The notes under the pieces are model-generated. The model saw only the letters and a program-made list of their open reading frames with translations, had not been told where the DNA came from and did not search any database. Below are positions 20,764 to 53,880 of a DNA stretch of 64,000 nt, one piece after another; position 1 is the stretch's first letter, and every line of letters begins with the position of its first letter. The position numbers and the translations under genes are program-made. The DNA comes from Psychroserpens jangbogonensis (GTDB lineage Bacteria; Bacteroidota; Bacteroidia; Flavobacteriales; Flavobacteriaceae). The stretch spans positions 496,001-560,000 of the forward strand of contig NZ_JSWG01000009.1 in the NCBI RefSeq assembly GCF_000797465.1, written 5' to 3'.

Positions 20764-20766
20764 AAA

Positions 20767-23181: not shown

Positions 23182-23184
23182 AGT

Positions 23185-25599: not shown

Positions 25600-25716
25600 A
25601 AAGTTGGTTTTCAAGTTATTAAAGTTACATTTTTTTTACAAATTGAGTCATAATCAATCCAAATTATACCATAAGAAATAGCAATCCCAACACTTTAAAC
25701 TTCAAGGTTTATTAAG

Positions 25717-41299: not shown

Positions 41300-41303
41300 G
41301 CAG

Positions 41304-42233
41304 ATGAATTTACAAGCAGAACTCAATAAAGCCGGAGGATTTAAAAACCTGGAGCTTCTTGCTAAGCAAGTTGTGGAAGGGTTTATTGCAGGAATGCATA
41401 AGAGTCCGTTTCATGGGTTTTCTGCTGAGTTTGCTGAACATAAAATTTACAACCAAGGCGAAAGTACACGTCATATTGATTGGAAGTTATATGCCAAAAC
41501 TGATAAGCTCTATACTAAACGTTATGATGATGAAACTAATTTACGTTGTCATCTTATTATAGATAATAGTAGTTCGATGCATTATCCTGAAATGAAAGAT
41601 TTCAGTATTTCAAATCTTAACAAAATTGCCTTTTCGGCATTAGCGTCTGCATCTATGATGCATATATTAAAAAAGCAACGCGATGCTGTAGGCTTAAGTA
41701 TTTATAGCGATGCGTATGATTATTATGCTCCCGAAAAAGGAAGTGAACGTCATCATCAGATGTTATTGAGTCAGTTAAGTAATGCAGTCATTTCAAAACC
41801 GCTCAATAAGAAAACAGAAACGTATAAGTATCTGCATCAAATAGCAGAAAACATTCACAGGCGTTCTTTAATTTTCTTTTTTACAGACATGTTTCAAACC
41901 TCTACAGATGATGTGAAATTATTTGAAGCCTTGAGACATTTAAAGCATAATAAGCATGAAGTTGTATTATTTCATGTCATTGATAAAGAGAAAGAATTAA
42001 AGTTTGATTTTGATAATGCACCTAAACGTTTTATTGATGTAGAAACGAATGAGTTCATTAATTTGTATCCTGATACAGTTAAAGAAGGTTATGAAACTGC
42101 TGTAGAAGATTACTTTAAAGCCATTAGGTTAAAGTGTTTACAGTATCAAATTAAATATGTTGAAGCAGACATAAATCAACCTTTTAATAAGATCCTAACT
42201 ACCTACATGGTAGAGCGTCAAAAATTTATTTAA
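41304..42233 (+). CDS. DUF58 domain protein (vWA-like)
   Basis: 309 residues. EFAEHKIYNQGESTRHIDWKLYAKTDKLYTK is the DUF58 core. LIIDNSSSMHYP is a MIDAS-like DxSxS motif of vWA domains, and SLIFFFTDMFQ lies on the next strand. DUF58 proteins usually work with MoxR-type AAA ATPases in assembling surface or envelope complexes, but no MoxR gene is in this window. It is probably co-transcribed with clpP. Confidence 0.82.
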   Translation: MNLQAELNKAGGFKNLELLAKQVVEGFIAGMHKSPFHGFSAEFAEHKIYNQGESTRHIDWKLYAKTDKLYTKRYDDETNLRCHLIIDNSSSMHYPEMKDFSISNLNKIAFSALASASMMHILKKQRDAVGLSIYSDAYDYYAPEKGSERHHQMLLSQLSNAVISKPLNKKTETYKYLHQIAENIHRRSLIFFFTDMFQTSTDDVKLFEALRHLKHNKHEVVLFHVIDKEKELKFDFDNAPKRFIDVETNEFINLYPDTVKEGYETAVEDYFKAIRLKCLQYQIKYVEADINQPFNKILTTYMVERQKFI

Positions 42234-42261
42234 AAATTTTGTCAAAAATCTTTATAAAAGA

Positions 42262-42292
42262 TTTGTGATATTAAAAATCGAATGTATATTTG
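42262..42292 (+). promoter_or_regulatory. Promoter of tRNA-Asp
   Basis: TTTG (42262-42265), a 19-base spacer, and TATATTTG (42285-42292) form a full Bacteroidota -33/-7 promoter. The -7 element ends 18 bases before the tRNA. Confidence 0.65.
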
Positions 42293-42310
42293 CCCTCGCA
42301 ATAAAGCAAC

Positions 42311-42384
42311 GGTCTGGTAGTTCAGTTGGTTAGAATGTCGCCCTGTCACGGCGAAGGTCGCGGGTTCGAGTCCCGTCCAGACCG
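42311..42384 (+). tRNA. tRNA-Asp (anticodon GTC)
   Basis: 74 nt. Acceptor arms GGTCTGG (42311-42317) and CCAGACC (42377-42383) pair fully. The anticodon stem TCGCC/GGCGA closes the loop CTGTCAC with GTC at 42345-42347. The T arm reads CGGGTTCGAGTCCCG. No CCA is encoded. Its 3' end is duplicated at 50813, marking it as the integration site of the element. Confidence 0.97.
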
Positions 42385-42562
42385 CTAAAAATTGCAAAAC
42401 TAAAGCTCTAAGAAATTAGGGCTTTTTTTAAGCAATAAAAGTAGTTGTGTTGTTCTCAGAGAAATCTGAGAGTTGTAAGAAACTCAATGTTGTTGGGTTC
42501 TTACCGATGAGAAGCTTTCCTTTTTTCTGAATAAGAAAATCGGGATGCTTTTTTGTTTTATG
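42372..42562 (+). repeat. Left attachment repeat (attL side, contains tRNA 3' end)
   Basis: 191 bases starting in the T arm of tRNA-Asp at CCCGTCCAGACCGCT. Matched to 50813-51002 it shows only about four differences (G/A at 42496, G/T at 42529, and one substitution plus one indel near 42533). It includes the tRNA terminator and a CTCAGA-GAAA-TCTGAG hairpin. Confidence 0.92.
42402..42430 (+). terminator. Terminator after tRNA-Asp
   Basis: AAAGCTCTAA / TTAGGGCTTT stem (one G-T pair), GAAA loop, T7 tract. An identical copy is in the right repeat at about 50843-50871. Confidence 0.75.
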
Positions 42563-42586
42563 GCATTTCAATCTACAAATACCATC

Positions 42587-42628
42587 AAAAGGGGTATTAT
42601 TAGGGGACACTCTTTTTTCTAAAAGGGG
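42587..42628. promoter_or_regulatory. Three AGGGG repeats near the left end, possible integrase/excisionase sites
   Basis: AGGGG occurs at 42590-42594, 42602-42606 and 42624-42628; the first and third copies are part of AAAAGGGG. They lie between the attL repeat and the integrase gene, where arm-type binding sites of tyrosine recombinases are often found. This is inference. Confidence 0.3.
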
Positions 42629-42689
42629 ATGCTCTATCTTTCACAAAATCAATCAAATACATTTTTTAATAACTAAAAAACTACCAATT

Positions 42690-43904
42690 ATGCAGATAAA
42701 TAGGGTGACTATTTTATTTGTAATTTACAAAAGCAGGAAAAAGAAAGACAACACTTCTCCTATTTATTGTAGAATTACTTATAAAAAACAAAGGAAAGAG
42801 TTTGCAACTGGATACTATATAAATCCTGAGAATTGGAATAGTAAAAACCAATTTGTCAAACCACCAGAAAAAGAACATAACTTTGTAAATACACAACTAA
42901 GCCTGATTACATCTAAAATGAATCAGGCTTTTTTATTGCTTCAAGTTAATCAAGTTAATTTTGATGTAGAAGATATTTTCAGACATTACAAAGGTGAAAA
43001 GGTTAAAGCAGATTTAGGAGTCTATGAAGTTTATAATCTGTTTTTAAAATACCTAGAAAGATTAGTTGGCAAAGAGTTGAATGAAGATACTCATAAGAAA
43101 TATATAGCCTATGGTAAACATTTGAAAAGCTTCATTAAATGGAAGTATAAATCTAAAGATGTAAAACTCTCAGCCATTAAAAGCAGTTTTATAACACACT
43201 ATGAATATTACCTTAAAACTGAAAAGAACTTTGCTCAAATAACCTTAAATAAGGTGATACAAAGGTTTAGAAGGTCAATAAGGTATGCTATAGCTGAAGA
43301 TTACTTAGACAAAGACCCTTTTATGCTTTATAAAGCAAGGAGAGTTAAGAAAGAGATTGTTTATCTTTCTCAGGAAGAACTTTTAAAGCTAGAAAACAAG
43401 AATTTTGAACTTCAAAGAATACAGCAAATCAAGGATATGTTTGTGTTTTGTTGCTATACAGGATTAGCATTTAAAGAAATGATTGCTTTAACCAGAAATG
43501 ATATTATTGTAGAGTTTGATGACAACCTTTGGATAAAGGTACATAGAGTAAAAACTTCAAGAAGTTATAAAGTACCATTAATGCCACAAGCAATGAGAAT
43601 AGTGGAAAAATACCATCATGAAGATTTAGACTATGTGTTTCCAAGGGTGTCAAATCCAAAGTTTAATGCTTATTTAAAGGAAATAGCTGATGTTGTTGGA
43701 ATTAAAATCAACCTTACACATCATATTGCTAGAAAGACTTTTGCAACAACTGTATTGCTTTACAATGATGTGCCAATGGAGGTTGTATCCAAGCTTTTAG
43801 GTCATAGTAAAATGCAAACCACTCAAGAGCATTATGGAGAAGTAGTTCAGAGAAAGATTAGCGAAGAGATGATAAGACTTAATAAAAAGTTTAAAATTAG
43901 ATGA
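42690..43904 (+). CDS. int: Tyrosine recombinase/integrase of the tRNA-Asp element
   Basis: 404 residues. The N-terminal half contains a SAM-like core-binding domain (YNLFLKYLERLVGKELNEDTHKKY, about 110-135). The catalytic domain shows CYTGLAFKEMIAL, where the first catalytic Arg position reads Ala, as in many Bacteroidota integrases. VHRVKTSRSYKVPL follows, then HHIARKTFATT (His-x2-Arg, Arg about 348), LLGHSKMQTTQ and HYGEV with nucleophile Tyr about 382. It should recombine attP with the tRNA-Asp 3' end. It is transcribed inward from attL. Confidence 0.92.
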   Translation: MQINRVTILFVIYKSRKKKDNTSPIYCRITYKKQRKEFATGYYINPENWNSKNQFVKPPEKEHNFVNTQLSLITSKMNQAFLLLQVNQVNFDVEDIFRHYKGEKVKADLGVYEVYNLFLKYLERLVGKELNEDTHKKYIAYGKHLKSFIKWKYKSKDVKLSAIKSSFITHYEYYLKTEKNFAQITLNKVIQRFRRSIRYAIAEDYLDKDPFMLYKARRVKKEIVYLSQEELLKLENKNFELQRIQQIKDMFVFCCYTGLAFKEMIALTRNDIIVEFDDNLWIKVHRVKTSRSYKVPLMPQAMRIVEKYHHEDLDYVFPRVSNPKFNAYLKEIADVVGIKINLTHHIARKTFATTVLLYNDVPMEVVSKLLGHSKMQTTQEHYGEVVQRKISEEMIRLNKKFKIR

Positions 43905-43946
43905 GCTAATTAACTGTGTTGTAATATATTTATAGCACAGTTAAAT

Positions 43947-44519
43947 TTGTTTATGAAGCTTCCAAACAATCACTTTCAAGATTTCCCTATTGATTTTAAA
44001 CAAATAGACCCTAAAGATTTTTCGAAATTTGAAACAGGTAATAAGATTGTTATAAGTCCAGATGTTAATGGCTATGTAGAGGATTTAAGAGCTGATAGTT
44101 ATATTGGTATGAAATCAAAACTTTTGGAGGTACTTCAAAATTATGGAGCAGAAAATCATTTGAATTCTATGAAGCAATTGGCTCAACAGAATTTAACTGA
44201 ACATCAGTTTGCTCAGCTAATAGGTAAGTCAAGACTATACAATTATTTACCAAAAAAGGATAAGCTTGGCGTTCCAGAATTATTGCTGAATGATGGACAA
44301 ATTTCTGCTGTGGCTAAAGACTATTATTTAGATGAAAACTTTTGTAGAAATGACAATGGAGATATAAGCCTCTGGAATGTTTACAACCTCTTCACAGGAG
44401 CTAATAAGAGCTCCTATATAGACTCTTTCCTGTCAAGGAATGTCAATGCCTTTGATTTTTCAAAAGGGTTGGCTAATGCTATCAATGGTGATTCTAAATA
44501 CCATTGGTTTTTGAGTTGA
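43947..44519 (+). CDS. DUF3871-like protein, N-terminally short
   Basis: 190 residues. The C-terminal two thirds (NLTEHQFAQLIGKSRLYNYLP, LLLNDGQISAVAKDYYLDENF, ISLWNVYNLFTGANKSSYID) match the DUF3871 family found on Bacteroidota mobile elements, as I recall it. Full members are longer (about 330 residues), so the N-terminal half seems to be missing. The frame starts cleanly 42 bases after int, and the DVNGYVEDLRADS segment is in place. It could be a natural short form or a deletion product. Function unknown. Confidence 0.55.
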   Translation: MFMKLPNNHFQDFPIDFKQIDPKDFSKFETGNKIVISPDVNGYVEDLRADSYIGMKSKLLEVLQNYGAENHLNSMKQLAQQNLTEHQFAQLIGKSRLYNYLPKKDKLGVPELLLNDGQISAVAKDYYLDENFCRNDNGDISLWNVYNLFTGANKSSYIDSFLSRNVNAFDFSKGLANAINGDSKYHWFLS

Positions 44520-44524
44520 GTGAT

Positions 44525-44550
44525 GCCCAATCTTTAAGGTTGGGCTTTTC
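44525..44550 (+). terminator. Terminator after the DUF3871-like gene
   Basis: GCCCAATCTT / AAGGTTGGGC stem followed by T4 and further T-rich sequence, 6 bases after the stop. Confidence 0.75.
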
Positions 44551-44591
44551 TTTTTCTTAAGTTACAAGCAATTAATTTGCTTCTTATAGGT

Positions 44592-44831
44592 TTAATTTTT
44601 AACTATAAACTGAAAAGCTTTTGATGGGGTTTTAAGGTAATTATAAGCTCCATTTTCCCTGTAGCTTTTTGTTTTAACAACATTTGAAAAAACATCATAA
44701 AATTCTTTTTTTGTCATTTCATATGTACATTGGTCATTTGTAGAATATATGCTGATTTTATCTTCCCATGATAATTTTTCAATACTATCTCTTTTAAAAA
44801 GTAATCTTGTTGATGAATAAGTTGACTTCAT
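44592..44831 (-). CDS. Small hypothetical protein
   Basis: 79 residues, ATG at 44831. It contains STRLLFKRDSIEKLSWEDKISIYSTNDQ and MTKKEFYDVFSNVVKTKSYRENGAYNYLKTP. It looks soluble with no recognisable motif, signal peptide or membrane segment. The normal amino-acid composition and a proper start make it a probable real gene, but I do not recognise the family. Confidence 0.5.
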   Translation of the reverse strand: MKSTYSSTRLLFKRDSIEKLSWEDKISIYSTNDQCTYEMTKKEFYDVFSNVVKTKSYRENGAYNYLKTPSKAFQFIVKN

Positions 44832-44876
44832 ACTAATATTTATTTTTGCTTCTTAAACAAAAGTTTCTTTTATTCA

Positions 44877-45143
44877 TTATAACTCATTTTCTAAAATAAA
44901 CCTTTCTAATCTATCTTCGTCTAGAATTGAATAAGGTAGGAAATCAGATTCACCATATCCAGAAGCATATACTTTAATTTTAACCCCTTGTGATGATAAC
45001 CATATCATTGTCCTACCACCATGGCTTAATTTCAAAAATGTTCCATCTTTCTCTTTTTTGTAACCCATTTTCCTTATTTTTTTTTCAAATGGATTATTGG
45101 ACGCCTTAACAAAGATGTTTTTTAAAAAAGCGAATAGTTTCAT
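44877..45143 (-). CDS. Small hypothetical protein
   Basis: 88 residues. MKLFAFLKNIFVKASNNPFEKKIRKMGYKKEKDG is a basic N-terminus, followed by TFLKLSHGGRTMIWLSSQGVKIKVYASG and an acidic end (DEDRLERFILENEL). No family recognised. It lies 45 bases upstream of the 79-residue gene on the same strand and may form a unit with it. Confidence 0.5.
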   Translation of the reverse strand: MKLFAFLKNIFVKASNNPFEKKIRKMGYKKEKDGTFLKLSHGGRTMIWLSSQGVKIKVYASGYGESDFLPYSILDEDRLERFILENEL

Positions 45144-45149
45144 TTAAAT

Positions 45150-45287
45150 TATTTATTTTCAAATTATTGTACTCATACATTTTATAATACATAACGAGTT
45201 TGAATATGATTTGTACGACTTAGAGTTTGTAGGATTTTCCAAGTAATCATTGAACTAGCAATGAATTATACACGTTGTTGGCTACAG
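45150..45287. repeat. attC-like repeat after the methyltransferase gene
   Basis: Directly after the methyltransferase stop (reading the minus strand) comes AGCCAAC-AACGTGTATAATT, ending about 90 bases later with AACTCGTTATGT. AGCCAAC and GTTATGT are each one mismatch from the attC ends RYYYAAC and GTTRRRY. The inner block TAGCAATGAATTATACAC (45256-45273 on plus) recurs at 46247. Confidence 0.4.
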
Positions 45288-46112
45288 TTATTTTCTGTAA
45301 ACACCACTTATAAGTTCTAATTCACCAGTTTTTAAATGAGTTAGAAGATTCATAAGTTTAGGTTTTGTTGTTTCGCCCATTAAGACATTAAGTCCCATTT
45401 TTGGTGGTCCAAACTCTTTCAGTCGAGCAACGAGTGCATTAAAAAAATCTATTCCTGCTTGAGTTTGATTTGTGGACTGTTCTTTTGTTAAGCCAAACTC
45501 TTTTAAAAATCCATCCATTTCTTCTATTTTAAACAAGAAACTATGGTTGATATTACTAGCCCAAGGCATTGGGTAATTGATTTCTCCATCTCCTTTTTTA
45601 AGAATATCATAAAAAAGAAAATATCCACCAGTTTTCAATACTCTATTTATTTCTGAATAAAACTTTTTCTTATCTGGAATATTCATTTGAACGTGCTGTG
45701 TCCAAACAACATCAAATTTATTATCCTCAAATGGTAGTTCAGCAGCGTCTCCTTGTACAAAAGTTGTTTTATTATTTAAATTTACGAGTTTAGATAATTT
45801 ATTGGCTGTTCTTACGTATTCATTACTAAGGTCAATTCCAGTTGTCTGACAATTATATTCATCAGCAAGCATTCTGCAAGGTCCTCCTAATCCACAGCCA
45901 ACATCTAAAACATTAAGTCCGTTTAGGTCAATACTATTGGCAAGCTCTTTTGAGACTGTTGCTCCACGTACGTGAAACTCATCAGCTCCAGCAATGTCAG
46001 ATCTCTTTACATTTTCTAAATCAATATTTTGTTCTTTAAGTCGATTGACAATATCCTCATAAAGTGCTTCTTTGAGATAATGATTCTCTATACTTAGATT
46101 TAAACTTTCCAT
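45288..46112 (-). CDS. SAM-dependent methyltransferase, class I
   Basis: 274 residues. The SAM-binding motif is VLDVGCGLGGPCRMLADEY (about 68-86), with TTGIDLSNEYVRTAN, FVQGDAAELPFEDNKFDVVW and the post-motif III NRVLKTGGYFLFYDIL. It is similar in layout to Methyltransf_11 small-molecule enzymes (sarcosine/dimethylglycine or sterol type), but the substrate cannot be assigned. It lies between two attC-like repeats, as a cassette gene would. Confidence 0.8.
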   Translation of the reverse strand: MESLNLSIENHYLKEALYEDIVNRLKEQNIDLENVKRSDIAGADEFHVRGATVSKELANSIDLNGLNVLDVGCGLGGPCRMLADEYNCQTTGIDLSNEYVRTANKLSKLVNLNNKTTFVQGDAAELPFEDNKFDVVWTQHVQMNIPDKKKFYSEINRVLKTGGYFLFYDILKKGDGEINYPMPWASNINHSFLFKIEEMDGFLKEFGLTKEQSTNQTQAGIDFFNALVARLKEFGPPKMGLNVLMGETTKPKLMNLLTHLKTGELELISGVYRK

Positions 46113-46134
46113 TTTTTCAGAGTTAATTTAGTTT

Positions 46135-46279
46135 TAATTGTTGCCAACGGTTTGTGTATGGTTAGTTGCGTAAGCGACTAAGATAGCAAAAAAGGGCAGG
46201 AGTAAGGAAATCCGCTAGGATTTCCGAGATACTCTTTACCCACTATTAGCAATTAATTATACACCGTGTTGGCATTAGG
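46135..46279. repeat. attC-like repeat after the 169-residue gene
   Basis: On the minus strand it begins TGCCAACACGGTGTATAATT straight after a stop codon and ends AACCGTTGGCA, so the two ends pair. A GGAAATCC-TAG-CGGATTTCC hairpin lies in the middle (plus 46207-46226). The block TAGCAATTAATTATACACCG matches the first repeat in 24 of 27 positions over the shared segment. Confidence 0.4.
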
Positions 46280-46789
46280 TTATTTTTCATCCACTACATC
46301 ATATATTCCTTCTGAATTTGTCTTATCAGTTGCCATTATTTCTTCAACATATTCTTGGAATTCCTTTAGAAAAATTGCTTTACGTGACTGCCAAAAAACT
46401 TGAAACCCTGGGTTGTTTTTTACTCCGTTAATAATTTCAAGTAATGATTCTTGTACTCTTTTGTCAAGCGTGCCTTCTTTAACGAGGTAATAGCTGTTCT
46501 GCCACGTTAACAATATACCGTGTAAATTCATTATAGCTTGAAATCGTTCTACTGGTGTTATTGAATCAGGATTGGTCATAAAGTTCCAAAAGACATAACT
46601 TCCTTGTTCACTATTTCCTAAATTGCTGTACCAAGAAGTAAGTTCTGATACTGTTGTCACAGCAGTCGCTGAACGTGTAGCCTTAGCACTTTCTTTTAAT
46701 TGCAACCCAACAAAAAGAAGGGAAATAATAATTACGATTCCACCAATTATTTCGACAATTAACGCAGTCTGTTCAAGATTATATTCCAT
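46280..46789 (-). CDS. Hypothetical protein with one N-terminal membrane helix
   Basis: 169 residues. IVEIIGGIVIIISLLFVGLQL (about 12-32) is a single membrane helix. The rest is soluble and mostly helical (WQNSYYLVKEGTLDKRVQESLLEIING, FWQSRKAIFLKEFQEYVEEIM). It resembles small N-anchored hypothetical proteins common in marine bacteria. No catalytic motif. Its 3' end abuts an attC-like repeat. Confidence 0.6.
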   Translation of the reverse strand: MEYNLEQTALIVEIIGGIVIIISLLFVGLQLKESAKATRSATAVTTVSELTSWYSNLGNSEQGSYVFWNFMTNPDSITPVERFQAIMNLHGILLTWQNSYYLVKEGTLDKRVQESLLEIINGVKNNPGFQVFWQSRKAIFLKEFQEYVEEIMATDKTNSEGIYDVVDEK

Positions 46790-46810
46790 AGTTTTTGTTT
46801 TGTCAAACTT

Positions 46811-46976
46811 AATGCCAATGCTCCCTGTGTATAGCGTAGTGAGGCGCGCCTCACGAAGAGCTATGTTCGCGCCTCATTCGCTATACATTATGTTGTGTGT
46901 AGTTTCTTGAGGAGCTCACAAGGAACTGCATAAATATACATTAATTAGTCGAGGTGCGATCAACAGGGAGCATTGT
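46811..46976. repeat. Large nested palindrome
   Basis: CAATGCTCCCTGT (46816-46828) pairs with ACAGGGAGCATTG (46963-46975). Inside it TGTATAGCG (46828-46836) pairs with CGCTATACA (46879-46887), and the centre holds the perfect 16-mer GTGAGGCGCGCCTCAC (46839-46854). It lies in a 595-base region without a convincing gene and could be an attC-like or replication/transfer structure. Confidence 0.55.
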
Positions 46977-47043
46977 GGGTAATTAGTAGAAAAGGAGCGT
47001 TTGCAAAACGCGGTTTCTATGTGCCGCAGGCAATTACCCACAA
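46973..47043. repeat. Second palindrome with 12-bp arms
   Basis: TTGTGGGTAATT (46973-46984) pairs with AATTACCCACAA (47032-47043). The loop contains the hairpin GCGTTT-GCA-AAACGC. It abuts the larger palindrome, forming a continuous structured block. Confidence 0.55.
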
Positions 47044-47190
47044 CAATTGGATATAGGTATTAACTATATCCACTCTATATCTATACCTACAAATCTAATA
47101 GATTTTTTGGACAATAAATATACAGAGGAGAGAATATAAATCTACTGAAATTAAATCATAAAATTTTTTTTCATAAAAGATTTTAAAATA

Positions 47191-47248
47191 CGGGTATCAC
47201 ACTCACGCCCCCCTCCCTAGTAAATACCCGCACTTATTTTTAGGGAGG
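47191..47248 (+). other. Interlocked inverted repeats, possible pseudoknot
   Basis: CGGGTAT (47191-47197) pairs with ATACCCG (47224-47230), and CCTCCCTA (47212-47219) pairs with TAGGGAGG (47241-47248). The arms interleave, as in an H-type pseudoknot with loops of 14, 4 and 10 bases. It lies in a C-rich patch 137 bases before the 131-residue gene. It may be a leader RNA or a DNA origin-type signal. Confidence 0.4.
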
Positions 47249-47384
47249 AAAACTCCCCCAACCCCAATTAAAAGATTTCACTTTTTTACAGGCAGATATG
47301 ATACAAGTTGATAGCTGTTATCTATGGTCTTAAAGAAGTAAAATATTTTGTAGGGTTTTTGTTCAACTCAAAAATTTAAATATT

Positions 47385-47780
47385 ATGGTACGTATTGTTA
47401 ACTACGAAGAAAGACAAGTAGATGATGGTAAAACATTCTTTGTTTTAGAGCTACAAGGTGGCATTGAAATGGCATTAAGTCAAGAGACTAATCTATTCTA
47501 TGCTACAGCAAGAAGAACCTTCATCTCTTCTACATTTGATGAAGACACCTGTAAAGCTTTATTAGGAACTTCTATGCATGGAAAGATAGAAAGGCAAGAA
47601 TGTGAAGCTTACGAGTACGAAATCAAGGAGACAGGAGATGTGAGAATTCTAAATCACAGATTTGTTTATGCTCCAGAACCTATATCATCATCTAAAGAAG
47701 ATAAAGCTGTTCAAAAGCTATTTGCTGAAGAACATACCTTTTCTCAGAATGGTGTTCTAGAGGAAGAGTTAATAGATTAA
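47385..47780 (+). CDS. Hypothetical protein upstream of the RadC-like gene
   Basis: 131 residues beginning MVRIVNYEERQVDDGKTFFVLELQGG. It has a beta-rich first half (ALSQETNLFYATARRTFISSTF), one Cys pair region (EDTCKALLG; RQECEAYEY) and an acidic end. No signal peptide or membrane segment. I recall similar proteins beside RadC-like genes on Bacteroidota mobile elements, without known function. It is preceded by an unusually structured leader. Confidence 0.6.
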   Translation: MVRIVNYEERQVDDGKTFFVLELQGGIEMALSQETNLFYATARRTFISSTFDEDTCKALLGTSMHGKIERQECEAYEYEIKETGDVRILNHRFVYAPEPISSSKEDKAVQKLFAEEHTFSQNGVLEEELID

Positions 47781-47788
47781 TTAATCAT

Positions 47789-47843
47789 ACTTCCAGTTTT
47801 TGTATATCTATTATATAGGTGGCAAATATAAACTGGAAGTTTT
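47789..47843 (+). terminator. Long-loop hairpin between the hypothetical and RadC-like genes
   Basis: ACTTCCAGTTT (47789-47799) and AAACTGGAAGT (47830-47840) form a perfect 11-bp stem with a 30-base loop, followed by TTT. It may terminate the first gene or limit read-through into the second. Confidence 0.5.
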
Positions 47844-47856
47844 AATTTCAACATGT

Positions 47857-48291
47857 ATGAAGGTGTCAGAAATAAAGGTTTCGTATTCCAATGAGAATCC
47901 GAACAAAGTGAAAATTGATAGCAGTGAAAGTGTATTTGAATTAGTGATGAATCATTGGGACAATAATTTAATTGAACTTCAGGAAGAAGTGAAAGTTGTC
48001 CTACTTAATAGAGCTAATATAGTCATAGGAATATATGACTTATCAAAAGGAGGAATTACAGGTTGTATAGTGGACATAAAACTTATTTTAAGTGTTGCTT
48101 TAAAAGCAGTCACATCACATATAGTATTAGTTCATAATCATCCTAGTGGAAATTTAAAGCCTAGTGAAGCAGATAAAAGGATTACTAGTAGGCTAAATAA
48201 AGCATGTGAAATAGTAGAGATTAGTCTATTAGACCATTTGATTATTTCAAAAGACAGCTTTTTTAGTTTTAAGGATGAAGGATTGATTTGA
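47857..48291 (+). CDS. RadC-like JAB/MPN domain protein
   Basis: 144 residues from the ATG at 47857; an earlier frame start at 47800 would run through the hairpin. The JAMM metal motif is intact: VHNHPSGNLKPSEAD with His93, His95, Ser103 and Asp106. The N-terminal helix-hairpin-helix of chromosomal RadC (about 225 residues) is absent. Short RadC-like proteins of this kind are typical of plasmids and genomic islands. Despite the old name, a DNA-repair role is not established. Confidence 0.85.
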   Translation: MKVSEIKVSYSNENPNKVKIDSSESVFELVMNHWDNNLIELQEEVKVVLLNRANIVIGIYDLSKGGITGCIVDIKLILSVALKAVTSHIVLVHNHPSGNLKPSEADKRITSRLNKACEIVEISLLDHLIISKDSFFSFKDEGLI

Positions 48292-48571
48292 CCTTACAAT
48301 TTGGTATGACACTTATATAACTAATTAACCATTCTGTAAGGTCTTCTTGACCTTTCCCTAATATGGTAGTAATTTTGTTTTACTCTCGTGTGAATGTGTC
48401 AATAATCATTAGTTTATAGAGGTTTTCAATCTAAGTGATAGTTTGTAGATTATATATCATAGCCAAATCTTAATTAAAAAGAGTGATTTGTTATTAAGAT
48501 AGTTAAGGTGTCATTTGATATATTACTATATCTCTAGGAACAAGGAGTGCTAAGTATCAAGTTGTAAATAG
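48292..48571. other. 280-base gap, no gene seen
   Basis: AT-rich sequence between the convergent RadC-like and XRE genes. No convincing reading frame, terminator or palindrome was found. Confidence 0.5.
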
Positions 48572-48823
48572 CTAAACATCAGTTTCACACTCTTCAATAT
48601 TGAGTAATTCAGAGAGTGATACTTCTAATGCTTCTGCTATCCTATGTAAAGTGTTTAGTGTAGGATTGGTTCTCCCAGATTCAATTCTAGAGACATTAGT
48701 AGTATCAAATACACCTAGAATTTTACCAGCTAAATCAACTTGAGAATACCCTTTTGAGATTCTAATTTGTTGTATTCTTTTACCAGTAATTTTAAGTAAA
48801 TCTGACTCTTCCACACTTGACAT
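48572..48823 (-). CDS. XRE-family HTH regulator
   Basis: 83 residues from the ATG at 48823; a TTG 9 bases upstream is less likely. RIQQIRISKGYSQVDLAGKILGVFDTTNVSRIESGRTNPTL is a Cro/C1-type helix-turn-helix, followed by LHRIAEALEVSLSELLNIEE. It consists of the DNA-binding domain alone, like the controllers of restriction or toxin loci. It is divergent from the membrane-protein operon, with a perfect palindrome between them. Confidence 0.88.
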   Translation of the reverse strand: MSSVEESDLLKITGKRIQQIRISKGYSQVDLAGKILGVFDTTNVSRIESGRTNPTLNTLHRIAEALEVSLSELLNIEECETDV

Positions 48824-48864
48824 ATTTGACAAGTGAATGAAAGACTTATATTTACAATGTTTAA

Positions 48865-48878
48865 TGCCATATATGGCA
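48865..48878. promoter_or_regulatory. Perfect palindrome in the XRE/membrane-protein divergent promoter region
   Basis: TGCCATATATGGCA is a 14-bp perfect palindrome, 42 bases from the XRE start and 8 bases before the first possible start codon of the opposite gene. It is a good candidate for the XRE operator, placed to repress the operon. A second, looser inverted repeat (CACTTG-N10-CAAGTG) overlaps the XRE start at 48814-48835. Confidence 0.5.
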
Positions 48879-48885
48879 AGTTTGC

Positions 48886-49716
48886 ATGATTATGGGAAAA
48901 TGGGAATGTTTAGCACAAGCAGATGGTTACTATAAAATAATTAAAGAAAAAATAGGTAGAGAACCAACATTTGATGATTTAATTAAATATAGAGTATCTG
49001 TTACGTCATTAAATGATGTACAATCTAATTTTGATGACTATGTAAGTGGTTGGAATCTTCTTAATAAGGATGTGTCTAATTCAGATGAAGTTTATGACAA
49101 ATATTTTAAAGCGAGAGATGATTTTGATAAGCTTGTAGAAGAGATATCTAAAGCTGGTTCTGTTGAAGAAAAAAGACAGCTTCATAAAAATCAAAAGAGA
49201 AATTTAGGTGACACCCTAAAGAATGGTGATAATAATACTAAAGAAATCCATTTGGAAGAGAGTCCTAACTTACTAGATAATTTAGGAATCGTCTTAATGT
49301 TTATTAATATACTATATTTTACAATTGAATTTGTATATCGCATCTTTTTAGATAAGATTGGAGTCTTTTATATATGGGGGTATTATGATGAAGTTTTCAA
49401 ACTGTCAGGAATATTATTAGTTCTGTCAATTCTTGGATTAAATTATTATTATTCTAGGTCAGATAACTTAAAGCAAATTATTGATGATATATATTTAATT
49501 GGCTTTAAGTTAATAAAATTCTTAAAAGAGATTTTGAAGATAAAAACTGTCCAAAATATATTCCTATGGGTAATAGGTGTTTCATTTGTTGTTTATATAA
49601 TTATCTATGTATTTGGAGTTGTTTATTTGTTGATTAAGTATTGGTATTTTGTAGTAATTGGTTTTCTTGCTCTAGTGCTTTTTTTGTATATTTTTATTAA
49701 ATACGAGAGGAAATAG
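48886..49716 (+). CDS. Unrecognised membrane protein, first gene of XRE-linked operon
   Basis: 276 residues. The soluble N-terminal half (about 1-125) is charged: KWECLAQADGYYKIIKEKIGREPTFDDLIKYR. Then come four or five hydrophobic helices: LGIVLMFINILYFTIEFVY, LSGILLVLSILGLNYYY, IFLWVIGVSFVVYIIIYVF and WYFVVIGFLALVLFLYIFI. An amphipathic Ile/Lys-rich stretch lies between helices 2 and 3. No enzymatic motif was recognised. The plan (cytoplasmic domain plus membrane helices, XRE control, on a small island) resembles effector proteins of some defence or toxin loci, but that is only an analogy. Confidence 0.7.
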   Translation: MIMGKWECLAQADGYYKIIKEKIGREPTFDDLIKYRVSVTSLNDVQSNFDDYVSGWNLLNKDVSNSDEVYDKYFKARDDFDKLVEEISKAGSVEEKRQLHKNQKRNLGDTLKNGDNNTKEIHLEESPNLLDNLGIVLMFINILYFTIEFVYRIFLDKIGVFYIWGYYDEVFKLSGILLVLSILGLNYYYSRSDNLKQIIDDIYLIGFKLIKFLKEILKIKTVQNIFLWVIGVSFVVYIIIYVFGVVYLLIKYWYFVVIGFLALVLFLYIFIKYERK

Positions 49717-49717
49717 T

Positions 49718-50251
49718 ATGAATAAACAAGAAATAACATTTGATTTTACAAGAAAGTATATAGATGATTTTATAATTACAACTAATAACTTGACCTATAG
49801 TATTCATCATATCAATTGGTGGCTTATGAAATATGAAGCTGAGTTTTATGAAGCTATTTCAAAGTCAAATTGTGGTAAATGGAGTAAATGGGTAAGAGAT
49901 AACTCTATTCATGTATTTCCTTGTGCTTGTCCAACTAGAGAGCAAGAATGTATTTTTATCGAGTTGTATTTTGAGCTTTTAAAAGTATCAGAGCTAGAGC
50001 CAAAAGAAATATTCTTTGAAAAAATAATGAAGGAGTATAAAATAGTTCAACACGATGAAGATGAGATTAATTTATGGCTTGATAAACATAAAGTAACTTG
50101 GAAAGGTTTAAGGTTTGATGAAATCATAAGAGTAAAACTTACTACAGAACCTTATACTAAAATAGAAGTACAATTAGCTAAGTGTGATTTTAGAAATATT
50201 ATCTTATTCCAGAAAACCTATAATAGATTGCACTACTCTAAAGAGTTTTAA
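49718..50251 (+). CDS. Unrecognised soluble protein with Cys cluster
   Basis: 177 residues, starting 1 base after the membrane-protein stop, so almost certainly co-translated. It contains a Trp/His-rich N-terminal part (SIHHINWWLMKYEAEFYEA) and a Cys cluster HVFPCACPTREQEC (three Cys plus His), which might bind a metal. A charged helical C-terminus follows (DEDEINLWLDKHKVTWKGL). No known family recognised. Confidence 0.65.
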   Translation: MNKQEITFDFTRKYIDDFIITTNNLTYSIHHINWWLMKYEAEFYEAISKSNCGKWSKWVRDNSIHVFPCACPTREQECIFIELYFELLKVSELEPKEIFFEKIMKEYKIVQHDEDEINLWLDKHKVTWKGLRFDEIIRVKLTTEPYTKIEVQLAKCDFRNIILFQKTYNRLHYSKEF

Positions 50252-50266
50252 AATACAGATTCATTT

Positions 50267-50291
50267 AACCATCTAAATAGATGGTTTTTTT
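50267..50291 (+). terminator. Terminator after the 177-residue gene
   Basis: AACCATCT-AAAT-AGATGGTT stem followed by T5-T6, 15 bases after the stop codon. Confidence 0.8.
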
Positions 50292-50304
50292 ATACCCAAT
50301 AGTT

Positions 50305-50721
50305 ATGAGAAAAAATAATATACCTTTTAAAATAGGTATGCAATATGAAAATTGGGAATTCAACCTAGATATATTACCAGACAGAATAAAAGGACTTGAT
50401 AGTTACTTAAACATAGATATATCATTAAATAAATTTCTTAATGTTCATTCAGATAAAACTGAATTACTATTTAATTTAGATATTCTCGAAGGTGTTATAC
50501 TTACCTTTGAAAACAGAACACAGGCTTTTTACAAAGAATTAAAAGAGAAGAGGTTTTCAGATGTAGAGAAACTAGGAGAGCTCAATATATGGTGTTTGTC
50601 TCAATGTGAGGATTATTTATTGACTCTAGGACATGGCATTATATATAAGGATAAAGTAGTATGTTTATACTATTGTAATAAAACTATATTACTACGATTG
50701 TTACATACATTAATTCAATAA
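50305..50721 (+). CDS. Unrecognised protein, last gene of the element
   Basis: 138 residues from the ATG at 50305. An ATG at 50281 lies inside the terminator stem and is rejected. The sequence MRKNNIPFKIGMQYENWEFNLDILPDRIKG starts a mixed alpha/beta protein. It has four Cys in the last third (LNIWCLSQCEDYLLTLG; KVVCLYYCNKT). It resembles uncharacterised island proteins and carries no known motif. It ends 91 bases before the right attachment repeat. Confidence 0.6.
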   Translation: MRKNNIPFKIGMQYENWEFNLDILPDRIKGLDSYLNIDISLNKFLNVHSDKTELLFNLDILEGVILTFENRTQAFYKELKEKRFSDVEKLGELNIWCLSQCEDYLLTLGHGIIYKDKVVCLYYCNKTILLRLLHTLIQ

Positions 50722-50812
50722 TAATATCGAAAGGAGTGTAATTAGGAGTTGTTTTTCTTATAGTATAACATGAACCCTTTATTTATAAGGGCATATTAGT
50801 TATAAGAATTCA

Positions 50813-51002
50813 CCCGTCCAGACCGCTAAAAATTGCAAAACTAAAGCTCTAAGAAATTAGGGCTTTTTTTAAGCAATAAAAGTAGTTGTGTTGTTCTCAG
50901 AGAAATCTGAGAGTTGTAAGAAACTCAATGTTGTTGAGTTCTTACCGATGAGAAGCTTTCCTTTTTTCTTAATTGAAAATCGGGATGCTTTTTTGTTTTA
51001 TG
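50813..51002 (+). repeat. Right attachment repeat (attR side)
   Basis: Begins with CCCGTCCAGACCGCT, the last 13 bases of tRNA-Asp plus 2, and continues 190 bases nearly identical to 42372-42562, including the tRNA terminator. No intact tRNA precedes it. It marks the right junction of the element. Confidence 0.92.
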
Positions 51003-51056
51003 CGTGTTTTGATGACAATTTTAAATTTCCCTGATGTGATTATAAACAACAACAAC

Positions 51057-51195
51057 ATGAAAGCATTTAAGTACATTATCATTTTAGCAGTAATTTCACT
51101 TGTATTTGGTTCATGTTGTAAGATTTAGAGATTCTGATTTGGATGGATTACCAGATAATCAAGATACAGTACCTTTTAATCCGAACATCCAATAA
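51057..51195 (+). pseudogene. Frameshifted small lipoprotein with Ca-repeat remnant
   Basis: An ATG at 51057 opens MKAFKYIIILAVISLVFGSC, a lipoprotein signal with lipobox Cys, but stops after 23 codons (TAG at 51126). In the next frame the sequence continues DSDLDGLPDNQDTVPFNPN to a TAA ending at 51195, a thrombospondin type 3-like unit. One frameshift separates the two parts. It looks like a small surface lipoprotein gene broken just outside the element, or a sequencing error. Confidence 0.5.
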
Positions 51196-51528
51196 ACCGA
51201 CTTATTAACAAGTAATGAACATTATTTTTGTTAAAAAAAAGCATTTAATCGATGAAATATTACATTTAAACGGATTTATTTTTGTTTGAAGACTAAATAG
51301 TATTATGTTTACAGTCCTTCATAAGCCCCTAAATCACTTATCAAGGTAATTTTATTAATCCATTCTATTTATTAAACGTTTTGTGCGTTTAAAATTCCCT
51401 CAAAAATTTTTTGATGTTTTGGCATGTTTGCCATTTAGTTAATAATCCATTCTTCCCTCGACTGGCATTTTTTGATGCTGTTTAATTATTAACAAAATAG
51501 AATCTAATAAACCCTAAATTATATAATT
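51196..51528. other. 333-base gap, no gene seen
   Basis: AT-rich sequence (about 70% A+T) between the decayed lipoprotein and the 60-residue secreted peptide gene. No convincing reading frame, hairpin or TAnnTTTG promoter was found near the next gene. Confidence 0.5.
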
Positions 51529-51711
51529 ATGAAGACCCTAAAAATTACATTTCTATTATTAGCAGTAGTATTATTAACTGTTTCAGGACAAAGTAGCGAT
51601 ATTGTAGTAGATACAAATGAGACTACTTTCAAGCCACAAAAGCAGATTGATCTAATGGCTCATAATAAAGGAAAATTGAAATTACCTACTAGCGGAATTA
51701 ACAAGAGTTAA
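51529..51711 (+). CDS. Small secreted peptide
   Basis: 60 residues. The signal peptide MKTLKITFLLLAVVLLTVSGQ leaves a mature part of about 39 residues, SSDIVVDTNETTFKPQKQ and onwards, ending LPTSGINKS. It is polar with no Cys. It has its own terminator and precedes the TPR sensor kinase. No family recognised. A precursor of an exported peptide is possible but unproven. Confidence 0.55.
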   Translation: MKTLKITFLLLAVVLLTVSGQSSDIVVDTNETTFKPQKQIDLMAHNKGKLKLPTSGINKS

Positions 51712-51736
51712 ATTATTCTTATACAATAAATATTAG

Positions 51737-51765
51737 CCCTTACTTTTTTAAGTAAGGGTTTTTAT
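51737..51765 (+). terminator. Terminator after the small secreted peptide gene
   Basis: CCCTTACTT-TTTT-AAGTAAGGG stem with a T-tract. Confidence 0.85.
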
Positions 51766-51811
51766 GTTTAAAATATTTTGCAACTATATTAAAGTATAAA
51801 ATAAAATATTC

Positions 51812-51819
51812 TACATTTG
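51812..51819 (+). promoter_or_regulatory. -7 promoter element for the TPR sensor kinase
   Basis: TACATTTG matches TAnnTTTG. The TTG at 51817 lies within it and so is unlikely to be the kinase start. Confidence 0.5.
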
Positions 51820-51846
51820 GTAGCAACATTGATAAACCAATCTATT

Positions 51847-53880
51847 TTGCGACATTTTGTTTTTCCTTTAATTCTACTTCTTAGTTTATCTACTGTTTAT
51901 TCGCAGAATGTTATACCTGAAAAGGATATTGATAGTATTCTTAAGTTAAGAAAGCTCTCTTCTGATGAAACACTTTCATTGGATGAGCGATTTTTATATG
52001 CAAAGAAAGCAAGTGAGCTCTCATTCGAAACAACTCTAGATACAACAATCTTAATAAGTAACAAGAACCTGTCATTTTTTCACATGATGATGGATAATCT
52101 TAATTTATATAGAAACCAAAGTGTTGATAACCTGAAATTGGCCAAAAAATTAAACGATTCTTCTTCAATAGCTAATGTAAATCATAATTTAGGTTATTAT
52201 CATCATGCAAATCAGCAAAATGATAGTGCTTATTATTACTATTCAAATGCATTAGAAATGTATGATTACCTTAATCAAGAACGAAATGTATCTTCCGTTT
52301 TGATAAATATAGCTAGTATTCAACAGGTTGAAAATGATTTTATAGGAGCAGAAGATAATGCCATAAAAGCAATAGAAGTTTTACAAAAATTACCTAAATC
52401 TGAAAGCGTCTCAGATGATCTTTGGATTCTATATAATTTACTAGGCATCAATTCATTAAATCTTAAACTTTATCAAAACTCTCTGGAGTATCATAATGAA
52501 GCTTTAAAGATTAGTGATGATATGAAGTTTGGCAAATACAATAAACTGTATTCAATTAATAATTTAGCCTTTGTTTACAGGGAGTTAGGAGATTTAGATA
52601 AAGCAATTAGTTTATATTCTAGTTTATTAAAAAATAAAAACTTATTTGAAGAAGACCCTTCTTTCTATGCGCTAATACTAGAAAATATAGCATACACTAG
52701 ATTTTTAAAAGGCGATGAGAATATTGACAATATTGAGACGCTATTTAATAGGGCTTATAAAATTAGTGATAGTATTGATGACCCAATCACCAAAATAGGT
52801 GTAACAGTTAGTATGGCTAAGTTTTATAAAGAGCTTGGTAGAAAAGAAGACGCTCTAAAATATGCTAAGGAAACTTATAATATTTCCAAAAACATAGAAT
52901 CTAATGATATTTTATTAGAGTCTTTATTAATTTTATCTGAATTAAGAGAAGGAGAAGACGGTAAAACCTATCTAAACGAACATATAAAACTTAGTGATAG
53001 TTTACTCAACGTCGAGAGAAATGTACGTAATAAGTTTGCTAGAATAGAATTTGATACCGATAAAATTGAAGAGGAAAACGAACGTATTTCTCAACAACGC
53101 ATGTGGTTGATGATTGTATCTGCGGTATTATTAGTGACCTTATTCTTGTTATATGTGATCATCACGCAGCGTGCAAAAAACAAAGAGTTGCAGTTTGAAA
53201 AAGATCAACAAAAAGCTAATGAAGAAATCTATAACCTCATGTTGTCACAACAGGACAAAGTAGATGAAGCTAGAGCAAATGAGAAAAAACGAATCTCACA
53301 AGAAATGCATGATGGCATTTTAGGGCGATTATTTGGAACAAGACTAAGTTTGGATAGCTTAAATTTTTCTGAAGGTAAAGAAGCCATTCAAAATAGAGCA
53401 ACTTACATAAAAGAGCTAATGACTATTGAGAATGATATTCGTAAAATATCTCATGACCTTAATACCGATTTTGTTTCAGGTTCTGGTTTTATGGATATCG
53501 TTTCAGAACTTATTGAAAAGCAAACAAGTGCCTACAAACTCAAACACGAATTTGATTATACAGATGACGTGAGTTGGGAAATTGTGTCTAACAAAAATAA
53601 AATTAATATTTATAGAATTATTCAGGAGTCGCTCCAAAACATATACAAACATGCCAAAGCTGAAGGGGTTAAAATTAGTTTCCAATTAAAAAATAACGTA
53701 ATTTTATTATCAATCACTGATGATGGAGAAGGATTTGATATTAATAAGAGTAAAAAAGGAATTGGTCTTAAGAATATCAACGCTAGAGTCGATGACCTAG
53801 AAGGAATGGTAGATTTTATATCAGAGATTAATAAAGGAACAACGATTAATATAAATATTCCCTATAAAACCAACCCATAA
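51847..53880 (+). CDS. TPR-containing sensor histidine kinase (NarX/HisKA_3 type)
   Basis: About 677 residues from the TTG at 51847, which opens a clean signal sequence (LRHFVFPLILLLSLSTVYSQ). The frame has no ATG before the TPRs. A periplasmic TPR region (about 60-400: NHNLGYYHHANQQNDSAYYYY, NNLAFVYRELGDLDKAISLY) is followed by one membrane helix (MWLMIVSAVLLVTLFLLYVI, about 419) and a coiled coil. The phospho-acceptor His is in KKRISQEMHDGILGR (about 488). The ATPase domain has ESLQNIYKHAK, DDGEGFD and GIGLKNI. It overlaps its LuxR-type regulator by one base. Confidence 0.9.
   Translation: MRHFVFPLILLLSLSTVYSQNVIPEKDIDSILKLRKLSSDETLSLDERFLYAKKASELSFETTLDTTILISNKNLSFFHMMMDNLNLYRNQSVDNLKLAKKLNDSSSIANVNHNLGYYHHANQQNDSAYYYYSNALEMYDYLNQERNVSSVLINIASIQQVENDFIGAEDNAIKAIEVLQKLPKSESVSDDLWILYNLLGINSLNLKLYQNSLEYHNEALKISDDMKFGKYNKLYSINNLAFVYRELGDLDKAISLYSSLLKNKNLFEEDPSFYALILENIAYTRFLKGDENIDNIETLFNRAYKISDSIDDPITKIGVTVSMAKFYKELGRKEDALKYAKETYNISKNIESNDILLESLLILSELREGEDGKTYLNEHIKLSDSLLNVERNVRNKFARIEFDTDKIEEENERISQQRMWLMIVSAVLLVTLFLLYVIITQRAKNKELQFEKDQQKANEEIYNLMLSQQDKVDEARANEKKRISQEMHDGILGRLFGTRLSLDSLNFSEGKEAIQNRATYIKELMTIENDIRKISHDLNTDFVSGSGFMDIVSELIEKQTSAYKLKHEFDYTDDVSWEIVSNKNKINIYRIIQESLQNIYKHAKAEGVKISFQLKNNVILLSITDDGEGFDINKSKKGIGLKNINARVDDLEGMVDFISEINKGTTININIPYKTNP

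Follow-up and report, generated by a model that had tools for sequence, protein, structure and literature searches.

An integrative element at tRNA-Asp of Psychroserpens jangbogonensis bounded by direct repeats that contain a complete neighbouring structured RNA

Islands that integrate at tRNA genes rebuild the tRNA that they enter. The tRNA-targeting islands mapped by Islander are described, in the available part of that paper, as carrying a tyrosine integrase, with the tRNA restored by the island and a displaced tRNA fragment left at the far end (PMC4383910). Within the flavobacteria, excision and circularisation have been demonstrated for the 10K genomic island of Riemerella anatipestifer (available part of PMC6764341). 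Here we describe an element in a window of Psychroserpens jangbogonensis DNA, by which we mean the whole analysed stretch of 64,000 nucleotides. The element is like the Islander islands, as portrayed there, in its integrase, restored tRNA and displaced fragment, but its repeated unit adds a complete neighbouring RNA gene, such that 177 of 191 bp lie outside the tRNA (PMC4383910). It also resembles the Riemerella island, which is flavobacterial, about 10 kb long and has 12 ORFs with a tyrosine integrase by a tRNA gene, and differs from it in that the latter, in the portion of the paper available, uses tRNA-Arg and a 53-bp repeat (PMC6764341). In the open-access literature we recognised no paper on this element or on an attachment site that carries a neighbouring RNA. 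The features of the site are as follows.

42285..42292, + strand: TATATTTG, promoter -7-like box before tRNA-Asp (sequence)
42311..42385, + strand: tRNA-Asp(GTC), target gene, intact (ARAGORN; Rfam tRNA 70.6 bits)
42372..42562, + strand: left repeat (attL side), with 14 nt of tRNA 3' end, hairpin and RNA; putative element-borne copy (repeat alignment, genus comparison)
42402..42425, + strand: hairpin after the tRNA, terminator-like by eye (MFE fold; the consensus terminator scan did not call it)
42444..42555, + strand: conserved structured RNA, tRNA-linked copy (model R1, 134.8 bits; covariation)
42587..42634, + strand: candidate arm sites for the integrase (P' arm), made up of AAAAGGGG-type repeats, by eye
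42690..43904, + strand: tyrosine recombinase (integrase), 404 aa (Pfam Arm-DNA-bind_5, Phage_int_SAM_5 and Phage_integrase; tree)
50730..50751, + strand: AAAGGAGT..AATTAGGAG, putative P arm, by-eye resemblance to the left arm
50813..51002, + strand: right repeat (attR side), with displaced tRNA 3' fragment, hairpin and RNA; putative resident copy (repeat alignment, genus comparison)
50885..50995, + strand: displaced copy of the conserved structured RNA, no promoter-like box nearby (model R1, 139.8 bits; no TAnnTTTG in 250 nt upstream)

The two repeats are identical at 187 of 191 positions (98%), far above chance, are the only copies in the genome and bound an insertion of 8.44 kb. The tRNA is restored at one end and its displaced 3' fragment lies at the other, as is the case for tRNA-targeted integrative elements. 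The original prediction of an integrative element in tRNA-Asp is thus supported by the repeats, by the integrase ORF with its three Pfam domains beside the left repeat, where a tyrosine recombinase had been noted, and by unbroken sites in relatives. Its account of direct repeats containing the tRNA 3' end was correct in that the repeats are real and incomplete as to their content: only 14 bp belong to tRNA-Asp, and the other 177 bp comprise the hairpin and a complete structured RNA of ~111 nt, which had been missed. The empty site that it proposed to look for is seen in related genomes, as in 20 of 22 other genomes of the genus tRNA-Asp continues without interruption into the next 177 bp, with no match to the window integrase. 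Of the two exceptions, G003 carries an element of its own and G016 an island without an integrase match that parts tRNA and RNA. When the flanks of the element are joined at the repeat they align in 21 of the 22 genomes to within 4 nt of the repeat end or past it, five of these reaching at least 55 nt beyond it into the right flank. By eye, GGGGT/GGTGT-type repeats lie behind the RNA end in the window element and in 10 related elements inspected; the putative P-arm pattern has a similar counterpart at the Tamlana right end and is not obvious at three other right ends inspected.

The 177-nt stretch after the tRNA has a fold z of -5.2, and covariation in the RNA is strong, with 98.5% of pair cells standard and 130 cells changed on both sides, compared with 29.9 +/- 4.4 after shuffling. 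Model searches found the RNA in 223 of 397 genomes of the family Flavobacteriaceae, and 24 of 25 matches in a phylum sample fall in this family. tRNA-Asp lies just upstream in 25 of the best 30 loci, and some other genomes have copies arranged in arrays. An Rfam 15 scan of positions 41000-52500 gave only the tRNA above cut-off, and nothing listed up to an E value of 5 overlaps the RNA; identity with 6S-Flavo or another Rfam RNA was rejected for want of a match over it. Rfp18 of Flavobacterium psychrophilum is described, in the part of PMC9723704 available, as a structured sRNA that has several stem-loops and is conserved in Flavobacterium; on that description the two RNAs are alike in being structured.

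The same source, in its available part, gives the consensus TAnnTTTG for the promoter box (PMC9723704). This box precedes the tRNA in 72 of 77 linked full-tRNA copies, and in none of the same 77 does it occur within 40 nt before the RNA. It lies within 110 nt of 5 of 7 RNAs without an identified tRNA-linked copy and of 2 of 27 redundant displaced copies (Fisher p 0.0014), and within 250 nt of 10 of 10 and 9 of 27, respectively (chance 0.165); the scan distance was 40 nt, then 110, then 250 with three more sole loci, both enlargement and widening following sight of the data, and sole status comes from model searches with strict filters that a weak linked copy could have escaped. With the addition of one contig copy, the right copy of W. 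bathintestinalis and three draft copies of unclear status, a box lies within 250 nt for 12 of 32 redundant or unclear displaced RNAs, which we count against the reading given below. In the hosts of three members of the integrase clade described below that lack the RNA (L006, L167, L168), the only RNA found is elsewhere and has a box at 47-55 nt. A conjugative-type element at tRNA-Asp seems instead to supply an outward promoter: in a leader common to its right end and to loci of three other genomes, TATTTTTG precedes the RNA by 196-227 nt. The pattern suggests that this uncatalogued RNA matters enough to be retained, whether through its promoter, through a second copy or, apparently, through a newly supplied promoter.

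We consider it likely, with a probability of about 0.68, that the extended attachment site brings in a substitute for the entire tRNA-RNA unit, without which insertion would break that unit apart. An element with a phage-type tyrosine recombinase would insert site-specifically at the 3' end of tRNA-Asp, where, in this family, the structured RNA comes after the tRNA and seems to be expressed from its promoter. With an ordinary tRNA attachment site the tRNA would be restored and the RNA cut off; a site with the tRNA 3' end, the hairpin and the complete RNA would rebuild the unit at the promoter, and the resident RNA would be displaced to the far end of the element. The computed basis consists of the repeats, the empty sites, the conserved RNA, the extended repeat in 14 pairs of copies and a single integrase clade. 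From these sequences we infer a crossover in the tRNA 3' end, co-transcription of tRNA and RNA, and continued expression of the RNA as the reason that a copy is carried. If insertion indeed rebuilds the adjoining gene of the transcription unit as well, selection on attachment sites would extend past the target gene, and the length of the repeats here, far beyond that of a core site, would be explained. One point against this reading is that transcription may stop at the hairpin that separates tRNA and RNA; in three loci, however, the spacer is only 9 nt.

The same tRNA-plus-RNA repeat (class A) occurs in 14 of 38 copy pairs, a share that is not a frequency as the loci were picked for several RNA matches or a related integrase. 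The starting points of class A repeats lie 12-27 nt within the tRNA (counted to one nucleotide short of the tRNA end), and the repeats stop 3-38 nt past the RNA; in the G750 pair neither copy adjoins a whole tRNA. Two further pairs were left uncounted, one in G745, where the 357-bp repeat extends beyond the RNA and may be a contig end present twice, and one in G036, where the full tRNA is duplicated in tandem. It is unlikely, in our view, that the long repeat is a mere duplication or a capture of host DNA by homologous recombination, the RNA being without function for the element. Such an origin would fit copies that are often nearly identical within a genome (1.00 in G750 and G751) and islands without an integrase match that bear the same repeat, but the start and end regions recur in all 14 pairs, eight of which enclose intact, diverged integrases of the clade; the displaced copy of G039 scores 80.4 bits, against 98.9 for its tRNA-linked copy, and by eye lacks part of the terminator stem; and promoter boxes follow need, in sole as against redundant RNAs. 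Since the repeats of G215, G056, G066 and G316 enclose no ORF matching the integrase profile, and that of G751 only a distant match, such repeats may also spread in other ways, for example by homologous recombination across the repeat, a further point against replacement of the whole unit by integration.

In the integrase tree the window protein falls within a 23-member clade (support 99/93) that targets tRNA-Asp. tRNA-Asp itself lies upstream in 15 members and its 3' fragment in two; four were assigned by the RNA alone and two are unplaced. Among the tree labels, those of L005 and L006 were set by hand from the loci inspected, L156 was labelled Asp though only the RNA 3' part precedes int, and for L008, L164 and L185 the RNA was the sole basis of the label; L159, a near-duplicate, was omitted. 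A complete RNA lies upstream of int in 17 of the 23. The tRNA-Asp locus is a family-wide hotspot, in a family that is large and mostly marine. Related integrases also sit at tRNA-Met, -Asn, -Val, -Arg and -Pro, and there no RNA was found between tRNA and int. Among 41 related loci with other targets the far repeat was reached in only two, both at tRNA-Met, most loci being too short for the far end and L183 having been dropped as a self-match artefact. In contrast to the window repeats, these two measure 49 and 50 bp and end 6-8 bp past the tRNA; the G070 element has a second, weaker 57-bp match ending 35 bp past it.

With a different crossover, at the 3' terminator of the RNA, the RNA itself would serve as attachment gene, and the right end's tRNA 3' end and RNA would be passenger DNA acquired earlier. 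Most repeats of all classes do stop close to the RNA end, with arm-like repeats directly behind it, and in some copies elsewhere the repeat is limited to the final 47-73 bp of the RNA (among them the third copy of G056, and G127, G178, G330 and G459). The left copies of G316 (172/204, against 155/235 for the right) and G178 (156/202, against 117/201) are also nearer the genus mate. By contrast, the window copies differ at four columns, and at three of these the right copy has the genus majority (17, 16 and 14 of 20) and the left copy differs; on these four columns, one of them undecided, the right copy looks resident and the left RNA looks like the newcomer. Each of the 14 class A repeats has its left boundary within the tRNA 3' end, as tRNA-type sites do, and related integrases sit at tRNA genes without the RNA. 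We judge a terminator crossover unlikely. Comparisons with the genus mate are mixed in Tamlana (left 168/209, right 160/193), and in G405 neither copy is clearly closer. Which copy looks native thus differs among genomes, and we count this against replacement of the whole unit. Left and right alleles have identities of 0.84 in Tamlana, 0.86 in Formosa and 0.90 in Hanstruepera, and in Tamlana the left copy has a longer middle hairpin than either the right copy or a genus mate. It is rather doubtful that elements bring their own RNA allele to the promoter-linked position and silence the host copy by distance, swapping a host small RNA; if they did, the RNA would be changed where, as in these three, the alleles differ.

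Besides the integrase, the window element contains the following genes.

43947..44519, + strand: remnant of a DUF3871 protein, C-terminal part, with homology beginning near 44046 (profile 170-318 of 318; residues 190-344 of the Tamlana protein)
44592..44831, - strand: 79-aa ORF, no family (only weak matches below cut-off)
44877..45143, - strand: 88-aa ORF, no significant family (Pfam and further searches)
45288..46112, - strand: SAM-dependent methyltransferase, cargo (Methyltransf_11, 6e-26)
46280..46789, - strand: 169-aa protein, no family, cargo (Pfam)
47385..47780, + strand: p131, part of the backbone, no family, SSB-like fold (weak) (matched in many related elements; structure model)
47800..48291, + strand: RadC-like JAB protein (Pfam, 2e-36)
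48572..48832, - strand: HTH_3 repressor-like protein (Pfam)
48886..49716, + strand: 276-aa protein, no family (Pfam)
49718..50251, + strand: p177, right-end module protein (W. bathintestinalis sibling, 27%)
50281..50721, + strand: p146, right-end module protein (W. bathintestinalis sibling, 42% over 81 aa)

Seven of the 12 ORFs have no Pfam family above the curated cut-off, in agreement with the original prediction of at least six family-less proteins, and its failure to recognise relaxase or phage genes is borne out by the absence of relaxase, capsid and terminase families from the 12. The statement that only accessory genes lie inside was inexact, as DUF3871, p131, RadC, HTH and p177/p146 recur in related elements; the tRNA-Met element of G014, for instance, also has AAA_24, DUF3871, p131, RadC and HTH. 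The expected integrase with other cargo was found in Winogradskyella luteola (94%), W. bathintestinalis (87%) and Tamlana (75%). Compared with larger relatives, the window element lacks the helicase, AAA_24 and the first half of DUF3871, and is, on this gene content, a mosaic deletion derivative of such elements; this nature and the family-wide hotspot had both been overlooked. A fold search with p131 gave nothing at E <= 0.001, the best matches being SSB chains (E 0.028, TM about 0.3), and p177 was found in 5 of 116 genomes searched, its own included.

No conjugation family occurs among the 12 ORFs, and the element does not qualify as integrative conjugative or mobilizable. PHROGs gave no capsid or terminase for the seven window proteins submitted, nor did Pfam for the element, and PADLOC returned for 10 of the 12 proteins only generic HTH matches and one very weak match. 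Close integrase homologues were absent from phages and plasmids, all 60 and 84 matching records lying below 60% identity; viral contigs held three integrase-matching loci on two contigs, at 32-50%. Types of protein that phages also have, Sak4-like and SSB-like, are present in the Tamlana sibling. The element may move with a borrowed helper, as the original prediction allowed. In W. bathintestinalis a sibling element lies head-to-tail behind a conjugative-type element at this tRNA; a search of the P. jangbogonensis genome with the TraG of that element, run without a positive control, gave no match, nor did one with the relaxase family PF03432. The missing genes, the missing relaxase and conjugation families and the empty TraG search would suit a dead, immobile remnant, a possibility that we lean against: the integrase ORF is intact, the repeats are 98% identical, arm-like repeats stand at both ends, and a relative of 3.9 kb, in G039, consists of int and two other genes only. 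As read from its sequence, the window copy is probably able to excise if int works, without transfer genes of its own. PF03432 was found in 2 of 11 genomes searched, in G035 on the same contig as a related integrase and ~170 kb from it, and in G029 on another contig.

The 8.44-kb insertion at tRNA-Asp is bounded by two copies of a long direct repeat, the left linked to the tRNA and the right displaced from it; no third copy was found in the window's own genome. The direct repeats containing the tRNA 3' end that had been proposed from the sequence are thereby borne out, as is the tyrosine recombinase (int), whose ORF carries three integrase-type domains.

Features of the tRNA-Asp locus (window positions)
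42311-42385, tRNA-Asp(GTC)
42372-42562, left repeat, identical to the right repeat at 187/191 positions
42402-42425, hairpin after the tRNA
42444-42555, structured RNA of ~111 nt, starting GTTGTGTTGT, with a hairpin and U-run as its 3' end
42690-43904, integrase ORF with arm-binding, SAM-like and phage-integrase domains
50813-51002, right repeat

The tRNA accounts for only 14 nt of the repeat, which is mostly a structured RNA gene. The fold of the 177-nt stretch gives a z-score of -5.2, and an Rfam search listed no match overlapping it. Compensatory changes occur in 8/23 predicted pairs of a 23-row alignment; among 60 distinct rows, aligned by fitting to the RNA model, 130 cells carried changes at both partners, compared with an expectation of 29.9 from shuffling, and shifting partners by 1-3 columns left 9-21. 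Among 397 family genomes the model matches 223; in a phylum sample of 296 genomes it matches 25 (24 within the family and one weak match outside). For the 30 best loci, ARAGORN places tRNA-Asp just 5' of the RNA in 25. Some genomes (L134/G227, L135/G287, L139/G129, L125/G056) also have the RNA, complete or truncated, as an array of 3-7 copies downstream of tRNA-Asp, mostly at kb spacing, several copies comprising the last 47-73 bp only.

Relatives supply the empty site called for as a check: in 20 of the 22 other genus genomes the same 177 bp come immediately after tRNA-Asp, and the stretches examined of these unbroken loci gave no match to the window-type integrase. Within the genus, G003 has its own element at the site, G005 and G013 carry different DNA beyond the RNA, and in G016 the tRNA and RNA are parted by an island without an integrase match. 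By eye, this island (L070, L217) spans ~12 kb and holds CRP-like, metallo-beta-lactamase/rhodanese-like and other genes. When the window flanks are joined at the repeat, the resulting sequence aligns in 21/22 genus genomes (a count that takes in the left end of G003) to within 4 nt of the repeat end or past it, and reaches at least 55 nt past it in five loci (L068, L073, L067, L079, L084). By the features tested, the window element is a tRNA-targeted integrative element.

What is new is an extended attachment site that reproduces the neighboring RNA gene, associated with one integrase clade in many genera. In 14 of the 38 copy pairs examined the repeat begins 12-27 nt inside the tRNA and stops 3-38 nt past the RNA, giving repeats of 147-225 bp with identities of 0.74-1.00. 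Eight of these pairs enclose an intact clade integrase (the window, G003, G039, Tamlana, Formosa, Hanstruepera, Pontimicrobium and Winogradskyella bathintestinalis); the G405 pair encloses a 109-aa integrase fragment. In the G751 pair the one integrase-like ORF enclosed is distant, and a clade integrase lies immediately outside the right copy. An integrase profile search found nothing between the repeats of the other four (G215, G056, G066, G316). Between those of G316 (L128, 1973-11309), SusC/SusD-like, anti-sigma-like and sigma-like genes were recognized by eye.

All 21 integrases labeled tRNA-Asp fall, with two unplaced ones, into one clade of 23 (99/93) in a 63-row tree; its nearest sister group is tRNA-Asn, further groups are Met, Val, Arg and Pro, and the nearest named relatives of the window integrase are in Winogradskyella. 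Upstream of the 21 lies tRNA-Asp itself in 15 and a 3' fragment in two, the remaining four having been labeled from the RNA because a contig end intervened or nothing but the RNA was visible. The RNA starts at most 640 bp upstream of int in 16/23 clade members. In G003 it adjoins the tRNA, ~1.6 kb upstream of int; in L156 and L166 it is well preserved only in its 3' part, and in L160 the region is cut by a contig end. Three members (L006, L167, L168) have no RNA upstream of int, and the sole RNA found in their hosts lies elsewhere, preceded at 47-55 nt by TAnnTTTG. Since the repeats of two related tRNA-Met elements measure 49-50 bp, the integrase family as a whole does not seem to be characterized by long repeats, although two elements are few.

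At the four columns where the window copies differ, the right copy agrees with 17, 16, 14 and 8 of 20 genus genomes and the left with 3, 3, 6 and 9; the left copy, next to the tRNA, therefore appears to have arrived with the element and the right copy to be the resident one, which fits a crossover within the tRNA. Unlike in the window, the left copy is nearer to the genus mate in G316 and G178, while Tamlana is mixed and G405 favors neither, which slightly lowers our confidence in the overall reading.

A reason for carrying the RNA is suggested by TAnnTTTG, described as the flavobacterial housekeeping -7 box (PMC9723704). This box precedes the tRNA in 72/77 linked copies, and none of the 77 has one in the 40 nt ahead of the RNA. 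The tRNA-RNA gap is just 9 nt in three loci (L123, L135, L161). A box lies within 250 nt of 10/10 RNAs lacking a detected tRNA-linked partner versus 9/27 redundant displaced copies (chance 0.165), and within 110 nt of 5/7 versus 2/27. The displaced RNA of G016 has a box 145 nt upstream and an apparent decayed tRNA start. On this reading the RNA would usually be read from the tRNA promoter, and an insertion between the two would favor either a substitute copy or the gain of another promoter. In L146 and L147 (genus g188), which have the RNA without a tRNA, TATATTTG begins 12 nt 5' of the first RNA base, suggesting a start point. A leader of ~200 nt with TATTTTTG is common to L095 (G225), L143 (G193), L194 (G750) and L202 (G741), running into the tRNA-Asp 3' end and RNA; a conjugative-type element in G750 has this leader as its right end, as though providing a putative outward promoter.

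Of the 12 element ORFs read as genes, seven lack a Pfam family above the cut-off and five (integrase, DUF3871 remnant, methyltransferase, RadC, HTH) match one, in keeping with the original prediction of at least six family-less proteins. The same integrase with other cargo, a further check, was also found: the W. bathintestinalis integrase is 87% identical, and sibling gene sets differ from the window's. Siblings in W. luteola, Gelidibacter, Formosa, Tamlana and Aequorivita carry int, a helicase-like protein, AAA_24 (Sak4-like in Tamlana) and DUF3871 consecutively, and the Tamlana element further encodes a cytosine methylase, p131, RadC and DUF3127 (SSB-like). In the window DUF3871 homology begins 142 bp past int and corresponds there to residue 190 in Tamlana; ~3.8 kb is therefore absent relative to W. 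luteola. Judged by sequence identity, the window element is also a mosaic, because its p131, RadC and HTH are 82-84% identical to those of a tRNA-Met element in G014 but the integrases only 50%. Of the proteins without a Pfam family, p177 occurs in 5/116 genomes searched, its own included, and p131 has a predicted beta-rich fold with weak SSB-like matches. The minimal element of G039 (3.9 kb) consists of int and two lipoprotein-like genes.

No relaxase family was detected in the window element, as had been noted from the sequence, or in the 10 Tamlana and 10 W. bathintestinalis ORFs scanned. A W. bathintestinalis TraG query gave no match in the window's genome, in a search run without a positive control. 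Downstream of the true tRNA-Asp of W. bathintestinalis come a different integrase (56% to the one at locus L020) and a ~49-kb element encoding TraG, TraM, DUF4138 and DUF5712 proteins. A tRNA 3' end and RNA come next, with the window-type element immediately after them; such tandem placing could permit joint transfer.

Two further observations were made by eye. Right of the window element, 51057-51195 encodes the beginning and end of a lipoprotein-like protein and looks like a gene remnant, since the middle part of its 260-aa counterpart in G005 is absent. Encoded side by side at 18265-25614 are three paralogs of 804-832 aa, which look like secreted leucine-rich-repeat proteins and have similar C-terminal sorting-type domains.
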